From positions 1-5,843 of the forward strand of contig VGYW01000498.1 of the NCBI GenBank assembly GCA_016872875.1: a DNA stretch of 5,843 nt, in the 5' to 3' direction. Below the pieces are notes generated by a model that was not told the DNA's origin, ran no database searches, and saw nothing but the letters and a program-made list of their open reading frames with translations. A program made the translations under genes and the position numbers. Source of the DNA: Planctomycetota bacterium. Lineage in GTDB: Bacteria; Planctomycetota; PUPC01; DSUN01. Below, one piece after another: positions 924 to 5,673 of this stretch (the first letter of the stretch is position 1; every line of letters begins with the position of its first letter).

Positions 924-3900
924 TCAGAAGTGGTACATGCGTATCCAGGTGGCCTGGTCTTTGGCGAAGGGGGCGTGCTTGCCCTGGGGGTAGCGGTTGA
1001 GGTAGGTCTGGAAGGCGTCGAGGGCCTTGTCCCACGCCTTCTTCTCGCCGTGGCACCGGGCGATGGCGAGCATCGCGTCCTCGCAAGCCGCCTCCTGCGG
1101 GTAGTTGTAGACGAACTTCTGGTAGACCTTGATGGCCTCGTCGTGGTTCTTCTTTTCGAGGTGGTAGGCTCCGACTTCGAGGAGGGCGCCGATGGCCTCC
1201 TTGCTGCCGGGGTGGTGTTCGAGGAGCTGCTGGAAGGCGGCCATGCCCTTGTCGGGGTCCTTGAGGTACTTGGCGTGGATGGTGCCGATCCGTAGGAGGG
1301 CCGCGCCCGCCATGTCGCCCATCTTGAACTTGTCAACCACCTGCTGGTAGGCGCTGACGGCGCGGAGGAGGTCGGCGTTGACGCGGTCGCGGACCGAGCC
1401 GCTGGCGAGGACTCCGAGGGTGTCGGCGCCCCAGGGGGTCTCTGGCAGCTCGGGGCCGGGCTGGGCCTGGGGGTGGTATTGGCGGCGGAGCGGAAGGTCG
1501 GCGAGCAGGCGTGCGCGGGCGTCGAGGGAGCGGCGCTTGAGGACGACGTGGCGGGCGTCGAGCCGGCCCAGGGCGCGGGCGGCGTATTCGTGGGTGTGGC
1601 CGATCCAGAACTGGGCGTCGTCGGTCAGGCGGGTGTCCGGGTAGTCCCTCACCAGGCGCTCGAAGAGCTCGCGAGCGGCGGGGAAGTTCTCGGCGCGCAG
1701 TTGCGCGGTGCCTGCGGTGAAGAGGGCGTCGGCGGCGCGGACGTGTTTCGGGTGCCGCTCGGCCACCTGTGCGAACTCGACGGCCGCCTTGGGGAAGCTC
1801 TCGAAGCTCTTGTAGAGGATGGTGGCGATCTGGTACTGGGCTTCGGCCAGCTTGGGGCTTTGGGGGTTCGAGGCGATGAAGCCCTCGTATTGCCGCAGCT
1901 CGGCGAGGAGCGGGATGCGCGCCTCGCAGAGCGCGGCGTGGCGGAACTTGGGGAACTTCTTGAGGTAGAGCTGGTAGAGCTCGCGGGCGGCGTCCCACTC
2001 GCCGAGGTTCTCGTGGCATTTCGCGGCCTCGACATAGGCCTCGCTCGTCTTGTCGCCGTTGGGGAATTGCTCCATCATCTCGGCGTAGGCGCCGAGGGCC
2101 TCGCTGAAGAGGGTGTTCGCGGCGAAGATGCGGGCGACGGCCAGGAGCGCGTCGTCCCCCTCGCGCTTCGTGGGGAAGAGGCAGAGGAAGGTGCGATAGG
2201 CCCCGAGCGCGTCGTAGTCGCGCCCAGCGTCCTGGAGGGCGCGTGCGATGGCGAAGACCTGTCGGTGGACGAACTCGCCGCGCAGGATGCCCGAATCGGG
2301 GGTTGGCTGGGCGCGGATGAGGTCGAAGGCGGCCTCGAGCTCGGCGAGCCTGGCGCGGGAGGCCGTGCCGAACTGGCCGTCGGGCTTCAGGCGGTTCTGC
2401 TTCTGGAAGTCGAGGACGCTGGCGTAGCCGAGCTGTCGGAGGCGTTGGCCGACGTCCAGTTGGCGGTACGGGAGGTCGGCGGGGTAGTGTGCGGCGTAGG
2501 CGGCGTAGGTTTCGAGCGCGGCGAGCGGGGCGTTGAGGCGGCCCTCGTAGAGCCTGGCGACCTTGATCAGCGCGTCGCGGCCCTGGGGCAGATGGGGGAA
2601 GCGTGTGGCAATCTCGCGGTAGAGGGCGACGGCGGTCTCCCACTCCTGAACCTGCTCGAGCAGGTGGCCGATGTGGCGGAGGCTGGCCAGATGGCTCTGG
2701 GGGTTGGCGGGCAGGATGGCGAGGTAGTGGTCCTTGGCCCTGGTGAGGAGTGGGAGCGCTGCGAGCGGGCCTTCGAGGGCGATGAGCTTCTGGGCCTCAA
2801 GGAGAAGCGCTCGCCCTCGAAGGACCTGAACCGCGGCGCGGTCGAGGGCGGCGTCCAAGAGAGCGTGGGCATCTCGCATGAAGCCCTGCATGGCAGCGGT
2901 CTGGGCGGCGACGGCAGCCCTGGCGAGGAGGGCCTCGACGCGCAGCATGGCCGCATCGTCAACCAGAGCGGGGCTCTTCCACTGGGCGTCCCTCAGGAGG
3001 GCGAGGAGGGCGTCGAGGGTGGCGGGGTCGCGGGACTCTTCGGCGATCTGCCGGAGCTGGCGGAGGATGGCGGCGGCCTCGTCGTCGGAGGGCTCGGTCT
3101 TGAGCGCGACGGCGACGGCCTCCACCGCCTCGGGCACCCATCGGCCCTGCGCGGCGGCGATGTGCTGCGCGAGGGCGTCGAGGGCCTGGCGCCGCACGGC
3201 GGGCGAGGCGGCCTTCGGGAGCCAGTCGCGGAGCGCGGCCACCCGCTCCTGATTGGTCATCGAGAGGGTGTCAATGAGGAGGAGGCGAAGACTCGCCAGC
3301 TCCTTCACCGCCGGGTCGGGGAGAAGCTGGTCGCTCGCCACGCTCTGGAGGAGTCGTCGGGCGCGGTCTGCCGCCTGAATTGCTGATTGCTGATTGCTGA
3401 TTGCTGATTGAGAAGCGGGCGGCGTAGCTTCTTCCTGTTCGGGCAGGAGCTCGTCTGGCTTGGGGGCGGGTTTGGGCTTGGGCGTCGCGGCGCGGAAGTC
3501 GGCCTCGGCAAGCGCGATGGCGGCGTGGGCGGCCCAGGTTGTGTGCGGGTAGAGGCGCATGGCCGCCTCGAAGTGCGCGTGGGCGCGGGCCGGGTCGTTG
3601 GCCGCGGCCGCGAAGAGGCCGCGGAGGTGGAGGATGTGGGCTTTCTGGGCGTTCGTGGCCGCACGTTGGGCCGCGGCGTCCAGGAGCGGCCCAGTGCCCT
3701 CCACGATGCCCTTCTCCACGAGGCGCTGGAGGGTCAGGAGATGGGTGTCGAGGTCGAGGGCCTGGGCGGTCAGGCGGGCCACGACGAGCTTCGCGCGCTC
3801 ATGGTCGGGCGCCTGCTTCAAGACGACCTGCCAGTGGGCCAGCGACTTCTCCAGGTCGCACTCTCGCAGGCAGGCCTCGGCGAGGGCGGCCCGCGCCGCG

Positions 3901-4295
3901 AGGTCGCCGGGGTTCGCCTGGACCTGCTTCTCCAGTTGCTCGATGGCCTGCCCCTCGCCCGCCCAGGAAACCGCGGCGAGGGCAAGGCTCGACAACGCGG
4001 TCAGGATGGCCGAGAGAGCCGTGGGTCTCCCCTCGTGGCCTGGACGTTTCCTCCCGAAGGGAGGGCAGTGTTTAGCCGGCGGCTTCAGCCGCCGGAACGG
4101 GCGTGAACCCATAGCCCAGTCCCGAAGGGACGGCACAACCAGCCTCGGGACGAGCCGCGGGCGCGGTCTCTGCCGTCCCTTTGGGACTGACATCTCCTGC
4201 GTGCCGCAGTCCGGCGGCTGAAGCCGCCGGCTAAGTCCCGTCGTCCCTTTGGGACTGAAGAGAATGCCTGTGTGGCAGTGCGCTGAGGCTCTCAT
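924..4295 (-). CDS. Large secreted TPR-repeat protein with PG-binding-like motif
   Basis: The product is 1123 residues when read from the ATG at 4295-4293, which overlaps the upstream TGA and has GGGAGGAG 7 nt before it. A GTG at 4343 extends the frame but lacks comparable support. A hydrophobic export segment lies unusually far in, at about residues 92-112, with a signal peptidase I-like SWA/GE site. Helical TPR units follow at about 131-164 and 218-252. Next come a Pro/Lys linker (269-306), a less regular helical zone (307-514), and TPR_6-type units (A-x2-Y...FP, as in BamD/CpoB proteins) at 552-604, 688-782, 796-909 and 978-1104. A basic non-TPR insert sits at 910-974. Residues 620-652 (LGY, FQKQN, DGQFGT) resemble the PG_binding_1 fold. 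It is probably a periplasmic scaffold; the partner and pathway are unknown. The N-terminal 90 residues are largely translated repeat. Confidence 0.85.
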   Translation of the reverse strand: MRASAHCHTGILFSPKGTTGLSRRLQPPDCGTQEMSVPKGRQRPRPRLVPRLVVPSLRDWAMGSRPFRRLKPPAKHCPPFGRKRPGHEGRPTALSAILTALSSLALAAVSWAGEGQAIEQLEKQVQANPGDLAARAALAEACLRECDLEKSLAHWQVVLKQAPDHERAKLVVARLTAQALDLDTHLLTLQRLVEKGIVEGTGPLLDAAAQRAATNAQKAHILHLRGLFAAAANDPARAHAHFEAAMRLYPHTTWAAHAAIALAEADFRAATPKPKPAPKPDELLPEQEEATPPASQSAISNQQSAIQAADRARRLLQSVASDQLLPDPAVKELASLRLLLIDTLSMTNQERVAALRDWLPKAASPAVRRQALDALAQHIAAAQGRWVPEAVEAVAVALKTEPSDDEAAAILRQLRQIAEESRDPATLDALLALLRDAQWKSPALVDDAAMLRVEALLARAAVAAQTAAMQGFMRDAHALLDAALDRAAVQVLRGRALLLEAQKLIALEGPLAALPLLTRAKDHYLAILPANPQSHLASLRHIGHLLEQVQEWETAVALYREIATRFPHLPQGRDALIKVARLYEGRLNAPLAALETYAAYAAHYPADLPYRQLDVGQRLRQLGYASVLDFQKQNRLKPDGQFGTASRARLAELEAAFDLIRAQPTPDSGILRGEFVHRQVFAIARALQDAGRDYDALGAYRTFLCLFPTKREGDDALLAVARIFAANTLFSEALGAYAEMMEQFPNGDKTSEAYVEAAKCHENLGEWDAARELYQLYLKKFPKFRHAALCEARIPLLAELRQYEGFIASNPQSPKLAEAQYQIATILYKSFESFPKAAVEFAQVAERHPKHVRAADALFTAGTAQLRAENFPAARELFERLVRDYPDTRLTDDAQFWIGHTHEYAARALGRLDARHVVLKRRSLDARARLLADLPLRRQYHPQAQPGPELPETPWGADTLGVLASGSVRDRVNADLLRAVSAYQQVVDKFKMGDMAGAALLRIGTIHAKYLKDPDKGMAAFQQLLEHHPGSKEAIGALLEVGAYHLEKKNHDEAIKVYQKFVYNYPQEAACEDAMLAIARCHGEKKAWDKALDAFQTYLNRYPQGKHAPFAKDQATWIRMYHF
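3379..3410. repeat. Heptanucleotide tandem repeat ATTGCTG x 4.6
   Basis: Four full ATTGCTG units plus ATTG run without error and are AT-richer than the surrounding gene. In the large TPR protein they encode part of SQSAISNQQSAIQ, at the end of the Pro-rich linker (about residues 295-307). Because 7 is not a multiple of 3, gain or loss of one unit would shift the frame. Both shifted frames stop soon afterwards, at 3305-3307 and 3271-3273. Confidence 0.85.
4052..4254. repeat. 203-bp nested inverted-repeat element (REPIN/MITE-like)
   Basis: Three pairs of inverted sequences share one centre at about 4153. The outermost pair is TCCCGAAGGGA (4052-4062) with TCCCTTTGGGA (4244-4254). The middle pair is an exact 24-bp inverted repeat (4072-4095 with 4211-4234) whose core is CCGGCGGCT-TC-AGCCGCCGG. 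The inner pair is AGTCCCGAAGGGACGGCA (4118-4135) with TGCCGTCCCTTTGGGACT (4171-4188). Spacings of 9 and 22 nt are identical in both arms. Each unit is itself a hairpin, so there are six small hairpins inside one long hairpin. The symmetry indicates a single composite element. It lies inside the open frame of the large TPR gene, upstream of its signal peptide. Confidence 0.85.
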
Positions 4296-5545
4296 TGTTG
4301 CGCTCCTCCCTTCTGCTCGAAGAGGTTGATGGCGTTCCGCCACTCGTCGGCGTCGGGGGCGTCGGGGAACAGCTCGACCATTCGTGCGTAGCAGCGGCGC
4401 GCCTCGTCGCGCCGCCCGGCGGCGGCGTGGAGGCCGGCGAGGGCCTGAAGGATTTCGGCGGATGCGGGGGCGTGGGTCTCGGCCTTCTTGAGGAGGCGGA
4501 GCGCGTCGTCCCGCTTCCCCTCGGCTCGGCGGTCGTTGGCGGCGCGATAGTAGAAGTCGGCCACGGCGCGGGCTGTGAACTCCTTCTTGGCCAGGCCGCC
4601 CTCAAGGCAGGCTTCAAGGGCGTCGAAGCGCCTGGCCGCCAGCAGGACGCGGGCCTGGAGGTCGGCGGCTCGGGGGCTGTCGGGCTCCTGCTTCAGGAGC
4701 TCGGCTAGGCGTTTCTCGGCGAGCCCGGCCTGTCCCGCGTCGAGCCAACTGCTGGCGGCCATGTGGAGGGCCTCAGCGTTGTTGGGGTTGGCCTTGAGCA
4801 GCCAGAGGCCCTCGTAGAGCGCGCAGAAGCGGGTGGCGACCTTGAACTGGTCGGCCGCGCCCGCCACGGCGTCGAGCACCAGGTGGCCGTCCACCACCTC
4901 GCCCGGCTTGGGCGAGCCGGCGATGCGCCGCACGAGGACCGGCCCGGCGAGCTTCCGCTGGGCGAGATAGGCCCGCCCAAGCAGCAGGTGAAGCTCGGGG
5001 CTGTCCATGCCGGCGTCCTGCGCCATCAGCAGGTATCTCTCGGCGAGCGCCCCGAGGCCGCGATTGAGGCATATCCGCCCCAGGATGAAGCTGTTGGAGG
5101 GGTTGCGGACGTCGTGCTCCAGAGCCTTTTCAAGGTAAGCCTTCGCCTTTGTGTCCTGGCCGAGTGCGTGGTGGCAGAGGCCGAGGTCGGCCGCGGTCGC
5201 GGGGTCCTGGCGCAGGCGATAGGCGTGTTCGAGCGGCTCGATGGCCTCCTTGTGCTTGCCGGCCTTGAGGAGGAGCTGGCCCGTGAGGGCGTTCGCCTCG
5301 GGGTTCTCCTTGTCGGCATCGAGGACCGCGCGCAGGACGGCCAGCGCGTCGGCCTGGCGGCTCAGGTGCACGTAGGCCCGCGCCAGGAGGAGCCGCTCCT
5401 GAATCTTCGCCTTCCCCTCCTTGTGGGGCGGCTCGAGCAGGGCAACCACCCCAGCGTAGTCCCCGCGGGCGTACACCTCCACAGGCTCCGCGCCCAGGGC
5501 CACGCAGGAGCAGACGACGAGCGAGAGACCGACAAGACTGCGCAT
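4292..5545 (-). CDS. Secreted TPR-repeat protein, 417 aa
   Basis: The start is the ATG at 5545-5543, with GGAGG 8 nt upstream. An in-frame GTG at 5560 lies on the far side of this Shine-Dalgarno and would break the signal peptide pattern. The first 19 residues (MRSLVGLSLVVCSCVALGA) are a signal peptide with an ALGA/EP cleavage site. Two cysteines in the h-region do not match a lipobox well (VCSC at best), so a lipoprotein is less likely. TPR units follow at about 50-78, 83-116, 117-150, 151-184, 256-288, 325-360 and 361-395. They are interrupted at about 201-233 by a non-helical stretch (GPVLVRRIAGSPKPGEVVDG...). No catalytic motif is visible. It is the first gene of a two-gene operon and is translationally coupled to the larger TPR protein. 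It is probably an exported scaffold or assembly factor; the exact role is unknown. Confidence 0.88.
   Translation of the reverse strand: MRSLVGLSLVVCSCVALGAEPVEVYARGDYAGVVALLEPPHKEGKAKIQERLLLARAYVHLSRQADALAVLRAVLDADKENPEANALTGQLLLKAGKHKEAIEPLEHAYRLRQDPATAADLGLCHHALGQDTKAKAYLEKALEHDVRNPSNSFILGRICLNRGLGALAERYLLMAQDAGMDSPELHLLLGRAYLAQRKLAGPVLVRRIAGSPKPGEVVDGHLVLDAVAGAADQFKVATRFCALYEGLWLLKANPNNAEALHMAASSWLDAGQAGLAEKRLAELLKQEPDSPRAADLQARVLLAARRFDALEACLEGGLAKKEFTARAVADFYYRAANDRRAEGKRDDALRLLKKAETHAPASAEILQALAGLHAAAGRRDEARRCYARMVELFPDAPDADEWRNAINLFEQKGGAQQ
4296..4310 (-). promoter_or_regulatory. Ribosome binding site coupling the two TPR genes
   Basis: On the minus strand GGGAGGAG is followed by 7 nt (CGCAACA) and then ATG at 4295-4293. 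That ATG shares two bases with the TGA stop (4294-4292) of the upstream gene, an ATGA overlap typical of translational coupling. This site decides the start chosen for the large TPR gene. Confidence 0.75.
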
Positions 5546-5558: not shown

Positions 5559-5673
5559 ACAGACGAGAGTGCGCCACGCGGCCGCCATGCCGGGGCCCGG
5601 CGCGGGGCAGAGCACGGGGAGGAGAGTTGTTGGGGATAGATCGAGCGAAGTGCGGCAGCGACCGCACCACGCC

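Follow-up and report, generated by a model that had tools for sequence, protein, structure and literature searches.

How does a palindromic DNA element come to lie, without closing the reading frame, between the start codon of a gene and the signal peptide which that gene encodes? The question is raised by contig VGYW01000498.1 of a Planctomycetota bacterium, a stretch of 5,843 nucleotides (nt) referred to here as the window, in which an element of 207 bp occupies the N-terminal part of the gene for a TPR protein. The start codon, the stop-free extension that follows it and the element within this extension, all pointed out in a preliminary description of the locus, are confirmed. The explanation favoured here, at a probability of roughly 0.7, is that the element is a transposase-less copy, similar to a miniature inverted-repeat transposable element (MITE) or a bacterial interspersed mosaic element (BIME), of a unit in which repetitive extragenic palindromes (REPs) accompany a transposase; that the ends of the unit are hairpins of the family Acido-Lenti-1; and that the copy was inserted in frame. 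The element and its parts are as follows.

4050..4256, no strand assigned: the element, 207 bp or 69 codons, stop-free in the gene phase
4211..4256, plus strand: Acido-Lenti-1 (RF01687), 49.1 bits
4050..4095, minus strand: Acido-Lenti-1 (RF01687), inverted copy, 40.2 bits
4117..4135, no strand assigned: the inner hairpin on the left, one arm (19 nt) of the inverted pair at the centre; complementarity to 4171–4189 is 95%
4171..4189, no strand assigned: the inner hairpin on the right, the other arm of the inverted pair at the centre, pairs with 4117–4135
4136..4170, no strand assigned: 35-nt core, the position occupied by the transposase gene in related units
4290..4293, minus strand: GAGA, the left-hand copy of what may be a short direct repeat enclosing 264 nt (weak, found by reading)
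4026..4029, minus strand: GAGA, right copy, found by reading

The element runs from an outer hairpin through TTAG with a 20-nt hairpin and an inner hairpin to the core, followed by the mirror image of this series, and its arms form terminal inverted repeats of 45 nt (84% complementary), as is characteristic of MITEs. Both Acido-Lenti-1 matches found with cmscan are full-length (1–46 of 46), with E values of 4.1e-9 and 1.1e-6. The 20-nt palindrome occurs at two sites, each exact on one strand, where 0.03 would be expected at ≤3 mismatches, and the folding of the element strand yields a z score of −8.5. Taken together, the recurrence of the palindrome, the two Rfam matches and the fold indicate that the element is not a product of chance. 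The whole composite also recurs, since a predicted protein of 192 residues (P0026, E 1.9e-4) is a translated composite with the same layout and an identical order of peptide blocks. Compensatory change is evident in Acido-Lenti-1 as well: among 15 chosen copies of the 46-nt arm, set on the Rfam structure, 9 of 13 stem pairs are changed on both sides with 99.5% of cells paired, a value as high as which was obtained in none of 500 shuffles.

In the passages on it in Weinberg et al. 2010 (PMC2864571), Acido-Lenti-1 is described as a probable RNA that is unlikely to be cis-regulatory, and as occurring in Acidobacteria and Lentisphaerae. Both arms of the element agree with it in exceeding the gathering cut-off (37 bits) and in having the same two hairpins; the difference from those passages is that the motif here acts as the ends of transposase units, in inverted pairs. 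Such units were encountered by way of the one distant locus obtained in a scan for orthologue DNA (L001), titled Candidatus Zixiibacteriota, which led to 132 whole genomes of that phylum. Eight of these carry Acido-Lenti-1 at E 0.001, seven of them above the cut-off, with 126 matches in total and 1–30 per genome. The carriers contain 36 neighbouring pairs of matches less than 600 bp apart, 15 of which are in −+ order. At three places (G132:C226, G130:C88 and G127:C28), mirror-image arms situated 543–553 nt from one another enclose a Y1_Tnp transposase gene.

The architecture of these units is shared with the element. In the window, hairpins lie at 1–15, 27–46 and 70–82 on the left and, counted from the right end, at 2–14, 27–46 and 70–82. 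The three transposase units have left hairpins at 2–14, at 27–46 and then at 70–82 (two units) or 72–84 (one), and right hairpins at 27–46 and, further in, at 69–81 (two) or 74–86 (one), with the outer hairpin at 2–14 in two of the three. Y1_Tnp genes in general are found in 119 of the 132 genomes and hence are no marker. Within the eight carriers, 6 of 50 Y1_Tnp matches lie ≤1 kb from Acido-Lenti-1 compared with 0.45 expected (P 6e-6), the expectation being a simple coverage estimate that takes the Y1_Tnp matches as independent. Homologues of the enzyme at G130:C88 occur in six of the 132 genomes at E 1e-8, and in four of these at E <1e-20; all four are carriers, and they are the four richest in copies (22–30 each), giving a Fisher P of 6e-6, or 1e-4 if G130, from which the query comes, is left out.

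Two of these loci have features of their own. The one at G127:C28 (L022/L064) includes, at 753–1161, four Acido-Lenti-1 copies in a tandem array with a period of 72 nt (24 codons), and a minus-strand frame of the array is open, at least partly, into the transposase (open frame of 226 aa). At G132:C468 (L062, ~1501–1845), a close transposase homologue has palindrome-rich blocks on either side, similar to one another; they give no Acido-Lenti-1 score and are perhaps a sister repeat family. Group II introns, with which Acido-Lenti-1 has also been associated, were unsupported as its partner in these genomes, with the maturase PF08388 in 6 of the 132 and in one (G132) of the eight carriers.

The association of Acido-Lenti-1 with a transposase was also observed in a second phylum other than that of the window. 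A tblastn search of plasmids with the G130:C88 enzyme, in which the best 2 of 826 matching records were looked at, led to a homologue of 40% identity in Persicobacter (Bacteroidota). The left flank of this gene matches Acido-Lenti-1 at 35.7 bits, just below the cut-off (E 2.6e-6, 801 bases); the right arm gives no Acido-Lenti-1 score but repeats the left one in inverted orientation over 43 nt (81%). Hairpins are found at 1–15, 27–46 and 70–84 on the left and at 2–14, 27–46 and 70–84 on the right, where positions are counted from an end set by the authors at 2041. The homologue on a Bernardetia plasmid is bordered on the left by different palindromes, and Acido-Lenti-1 is absent there at E 1. 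Here (L085, 1293–1469), a Y---Q--HH IS200-like transposase stands beside an array of GTTGC/GCAAC palindromes, another REP-like type.

As to the class of enzyme, two transposases scanned in NCBIfam matched NF033573 (IS200) at 71.2 and 74 bits, above the cut-off of 55. They do not belong to the REP-associated tyrosine transposases (RAYTs) by this measure: NF047646 scored 25.9 bits (cut-off 80) in one of the two proteins and gave no match in the other. The motif Y---Q--HH is present in 7 of 7 relatives in which this region is in view, two of them plasmid proteins; the sequence of an eighth (L065) ends before the end of the motif and is left uncounted. This is the motif of TnpA_Y1 subclass 1.2 (PMC6006769, 2018), which is described as being generally without typical end structures. 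The present enzymes are like that subclass in the motif and in numbering 1–3 matches per genome in the four genomes with close homologues, but differ from it in that hairpin arms flank the gene, also in the genomes of the Zixibacteria phylum. It is thought probable that Acido-Lenti-1 is the DNA end-hairpin of a REP-like system which employs TnpA_Y1 subclass 1.2 enzymes in at least three phyla and sheds transposase-less copies, one of which would now encode a new N-terminal extension before a signal peptide.

Units without a transposase gene occur in the same carriers. Pairs of Acido-Lenti-1 copies in −+ order with a gap of 91–118 nt are present at five places, and the gap in the window is 115. 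Of seven −+ units, five were parsed, namely G130:C117 (gap 196) and all of the five short ones except G131:C19; G131C82 (gap 23) and G131C88 (gap 301) are outside the parsed set. All five have the outer hairpin (2–14 or 1–15) and the next one (27–46 or 27–45) in register on both sides, and the inner left hairpin lies at 67–84 except in G132C170 and G131C79, for which a strict 5-bp rule yields none. G130:C117 has no full transposase and keeps a 28-residue C-terminal piece of it (71% identity, E 1e-13), which may be read as an intermediate of internal transposase deletion. That deletion lies behind the MITE-like form may be inferred from the arms of the same layout that enclose the gene elsewhere.

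The gene in which the element lies is the downstream member of two TPR genes on the minus strand, joined by an ATGA overlap at 4295–4292.

924..4295, minus strand: TPR protein gene, 1123 codons counted from ATG 4295
4292..5545, minus strand: upstream TPR gene, its TGA overlapped by ATG 4295; the GTG at 5560 may be an earlier start
4303..4310, minus strand: Shine-Dalgarno sequence GGGAGGAG for ATG 4295, duplex −11.3 kcal/mol
3960..4022, minus strand: hydrophobic signal segment TALSAILTALSSLALAAVSWA, compared with the N-termini of orthologues

The ATG at 4295–4293, which shares ATGA with the TGA of the upstream gene, had been named as the best start on account of this overlap and a strong Shine-Dalgarno sequence, and the duplex energies with the anti-Shine-Dalgarno bear this out: −11.3 kcal/mol compared with −6.2 and −5.4 for ATG 4193 and ATG 4112, the only other in-frame ATGs. 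The hydrophobic segment (4022–3960) opens at codon 92. The 91 codons of extension before it agree with the earlier estimate of about 90, and 69 of them belong to the element, as the statement that the intervening codons are mostly repeat implied; the in-frame reading of the two arms is SPKGTTGLSRRLQPP and FRRLKPP. The extension is also stop-free as claimed. Over 4295–4020 (92 codons), the gene phase has no stop and the other two minus-strand phases have two each, one of these stops being the upstream gene's own TGA, and if only the element is counted, the stops in the three phases number 0 (the gene phase), 1 and 2. There is no ATG, GTG or TTG between the element and the hydrophobic segment, and therefore any usual upstream start adds element codons to the protein.

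The element might instead be an intercistronic regulatory or stabilising RNA, as Acido-Lenti-1 is filed, with an open frame that is incidental and a start at ATG 4112, and this is held to be unlikely. The protein database entry for the TPR protein (P0001, 1062 aa) begins at ATG 4112, inside the element, but the Shine-Dalgarno sequence there is weak by comparison (−5.4 vs −11.3 kcal/mol), and a start at this codon still places 30 residues ahead of the signal segment, of which the element encodes 21. The strong fold (z −8.5) suits an RNA, and most REPs at the 5′ ends of open reading frames (ORFs) in P. putida, C. koseri and S. maltophilia may be non-coding (Di Nocera 2013, PMC3733652); however, similar hairpins flank a transposase elsewhere with nearly identical spacing. 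The start codon at 4295 is predicted to be unpaired at 0.67 in a version lacking 264 nt and at 0.36–0.38 otherwise, such that the insert may damp initiation, whereas the predicted openness of the Shine-Dalgarno sequence is little changed (0.15–0.28 in the native form, 0.26–0.30 without the 207 bp and 0.23–0.24 without the 264 nt). Sequestration of the Shine-Dalgarno sequence by the element was rejected on the small size of this predicted change, notwithstanding the greater openness of the start codon in the version lacking 264 nt.

Comparison with orthologues bears on the origin of the extension. The set comprised 25 proteins, of which P0001 is the window's own and P0023–P0025 are distant; 20 of the remaining 21 were aligned, with P0010 left out as it begins inside the signal peptide. 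The closest orthologue with an organism name is a protein from a metagenome-assembled genome (MAG) of 'Candidatus Brocadiia', 67% identical to the TPR protein. In 20 of 20 aligned orthologues, the distance from the start to the first invariant alanine is 41–63 residues (mean 47.2, sd 4.6), with 63 in P0019, ≤52 in the other 19 and 46 in the closest, P0002. The same distance in the window is 137 from ATG 4295 and 76 from ATG 4112. The extension is absent from all 20, whose N-termini are far shorter, and is therefore lineage-specific. The GC content by codon position, 0.66/0.63/0.73 in the extension and 0.74/0.45/0.90 in the gene body, does not follow the gene-body pattern, and the extension thus resembles inserted DNA rather than old coding sequence. 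That it should be a long-standing functional domain or a long leader conserved in evolution is scarcely credible, with the open frame alone in its favour against this composition and its absence from the orthologues.

An ancestral short N-terminus interrupted by an in-frame insertion had been proposed in the preliminary description. The insertion part of that model is upheld by the shorter N-termini of the orthologues, but the exact junction is not: removal of the 207-bp element leaves a distance of 68, an excess of about 20 residues, while removal of the 264 nt between the GAGA copies leaves 49. Orthologues that start directly before the signal peptide had been put forward there as evidence against the model. 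Such starts, the first half of that argument, are what was found, yet insertion predicts the same, and the lack of a usual start codon between the element and the signal segment in the window also weighs against the argument. Of the 20 orthologues, 18 have R, K or N as their second residue, which is compatible with a shared ATGA overlap and a weak sign of it; R, K and N are common near the start of signal peptides. The only candidate for a target-site duplication is GAGA, noticed by reading, which lies away from the element ends and is below the ≥6-nt threshold of the scan for repeats. Repeats of 6–7 nt do occur, one between the Shine-Dalgarno-like GGGAGGA and the outer hairpin and the other of GAGAGCC in inverted orientation, and neither is a clear duplication. 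In-frame insertion behind the native start is nonetheless well supported by the sequence comparisons. Roughly one insertion in nine would by chance have both a length in frame (1/3) and an open phase (1/3), and such odds hint at the survival of in-frame events; they are no proof of selection.

Two further alternatives concern the integrity of the gene. The insertion may have broken it, leaving an extended product that is not exported and a gene in decay, which is possible though doubtful: the n-region far exceeds in length that of all 20 aligned orthologues, but more than 1000 codons are open with a gene-like codon composition and the conserved C-terminus is retained, and after a recent insertion decay would not yet show. 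Alternatively, an assembly artefact could have joined a repeat into the operon. The contig is apparently metagenomic and short repeats can mis-assemble, but the two genes, upstream and downstream, and the stop overlap between them are intact and keep their phase, making this explanation highly improbable.

Intact units have mirror-image arms around the gene for a Y1/HUH transposase with Y---Q--HH. Under the favoured explanation, and to judge from architecture and family, the transposase would act in trans to cut and rejoin single-stranded DNA at the foot of the hairpin, and gene-less short copies would spread by its action. One of these may have entered an operon of planctomycete-like character, immediately after the ATGA-coupled start codon of a gene whose TPR product is probably exported, where its 69-codon length and its phase would have kept the frame open. 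Ribosomes from ATG 4295 would then read through the element, a translation that is likely, and the product would have an Arg/Pro-rich n-region of ~90 residues ahead of the signal segment.

Insertion of palindromes in frame is a kind of event already known from REPs and from the Rickettsia palindromic elements. REP insertions in ORFs are commoner N-terminally than C-terminally (PMC3733652). The foot of the hairpin is GT[AG]G in canonical REPs; in the 15 aligned copies of Acido-Lenti-1, it is GTAG in 8, ATAG in 3, TTAG in 3 and CTAG in 1. The present system is like REP/REPIN/BIME-RAYT systems (REPtrons) in this GTAG foot of 8 of 15 copies and in having short palindromes as inverted pairs or arrays around a Y1 transposase, and the inverted pairs and clusters typical of REPs and BIMEs are present both as the pair in the window and as those of the carriers. 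It differs in having two distinct hairpins per unit, TTAG in the window, and a transposase not of the Y---NP RAYT class. TIRtrons and TIRYTs, in the portions of PMC3733652 devoted to them, are likewise tyrosine transposases with long, partly double-palindromic flanking inverted repeats and include an Acidobacteria group as well as families of TIR repeats; the likeness to Acido-Lenti-1 is one of description. The Rickettsia palindromic elements, according to the part of PMC10969869 that deals with them, are also palindromes translated in frame inside genes, but are ~150 bp long and recur in many genes, in contrast to the one orthologue-backed case here.

Several observations weigh against the favoured explanation. 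The transposase association was seen in other genomes, with the window's own host genome outside the comparison, and the window copies have TTAG rather than GT[AG]G at the hairpin foot. Three of the six nearby Y1_Tnp cases are weaker: G131:C67 has a copy of 28.8 bits, G132:C392 a distance of 675 bp and a transposase match of 33.9 bits, and the transposase at G130:C62 is a fragment that contains a stop. When all six homologue genomes are counted, the Fisher P is 8e-5, or 9e-4 without G130, and these values presuppose independence of genomes that may be related. No homologue at E 1e-8 was found in the carriers G031, G032, G128 and G129, bearing in mind that MAGs among the genomes searched may be incomplete; the weak-homologue genomes G102 and G124 have no Acido-Lenti-1, nor any at E 1 in their loci; and no scoring copy lies near the close homologues at G132:C468 and G131:C11. 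At the insertion site, removal of the element alone leaves, besides the ~20 residues, ~57 nt of flank unexplained, and protein sequences rather than DNA underlie what is deduced of the empty site and of an ATGA overlap in relatives. Finally, for two Tannerella proteases with Acido-Lenti-1 downstream, the relevant section of PMC13298647 reports no transposases or integrases in the vicinity.

Additional copies of the element were sought in several collections. Among long proteins, only the window's own scored at E ≤10 out of 30 word-sharing candidates, and among shorter proteins P0026 alone was found in 46 candidates, both searches being limited to proteins that share exact words with the window copy. 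Pattern scans of IMG/VR for the element gave 0 matches, and an orthologue search there gave 9 stretches fitting a pattern and 0 relatives. Plasmid and phage DNA had no match to the element at E 1e-5; at E 10, plasmids gave weak partial matches only, the best being 23% of 209 bases and 70% of 46 bases. In the Zixibacteria-phylum loci, 19 of 72 Acido-Lenti-1 copies are inside mechanical ORFs of ≥150 aa, some of which hold more than one copy and one of which holds five. Several of these ORFs look, by eye, antisense or extended upstream of a likelier start. At L026 (G127:C94, 1159–1710), a weak copy (33.2 bits) falls at residues 9–23 of a 183-aa ORF resembling a membrane protein, a possible second case of N-terminal insertion.

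If correct, the favoured explanation has consequences for three subjects. It offers an account of an RNA family whose function is unknown and which is still reported as a non-coding RNA in the pertinent part of PMC10059132 and is suggested as a protease regulator in that of PMC13298647. No link between Acido-Lenti-1 and a transposase was found in the literature naming the motif, as far as it was searched. It also provides a candidate DNA substrate for a transposase subclass described as generally without typical end structures. Lastly, the locus offers a clean case of mobile DNA in a reading frame between a start codon and a signal peptide, the effect of which on export is directly testable.

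The window contains other repeats apart from the element. A 7-base tandem repeat (TGATTGC type) at 3379–3410 is in frame within the TPR gene and is read as SAISNQQSAI, and the orthologue P0002 has a different linker at this position. On the 3′ side of the gene, a hairpin with a perfect 13-bp stem at 699–727 gives no Acido-Lenti-1 score. Near this hairpin are direct repeats at 776–804 and 836–864 and an inverted pair at 481–495 and 604–618.
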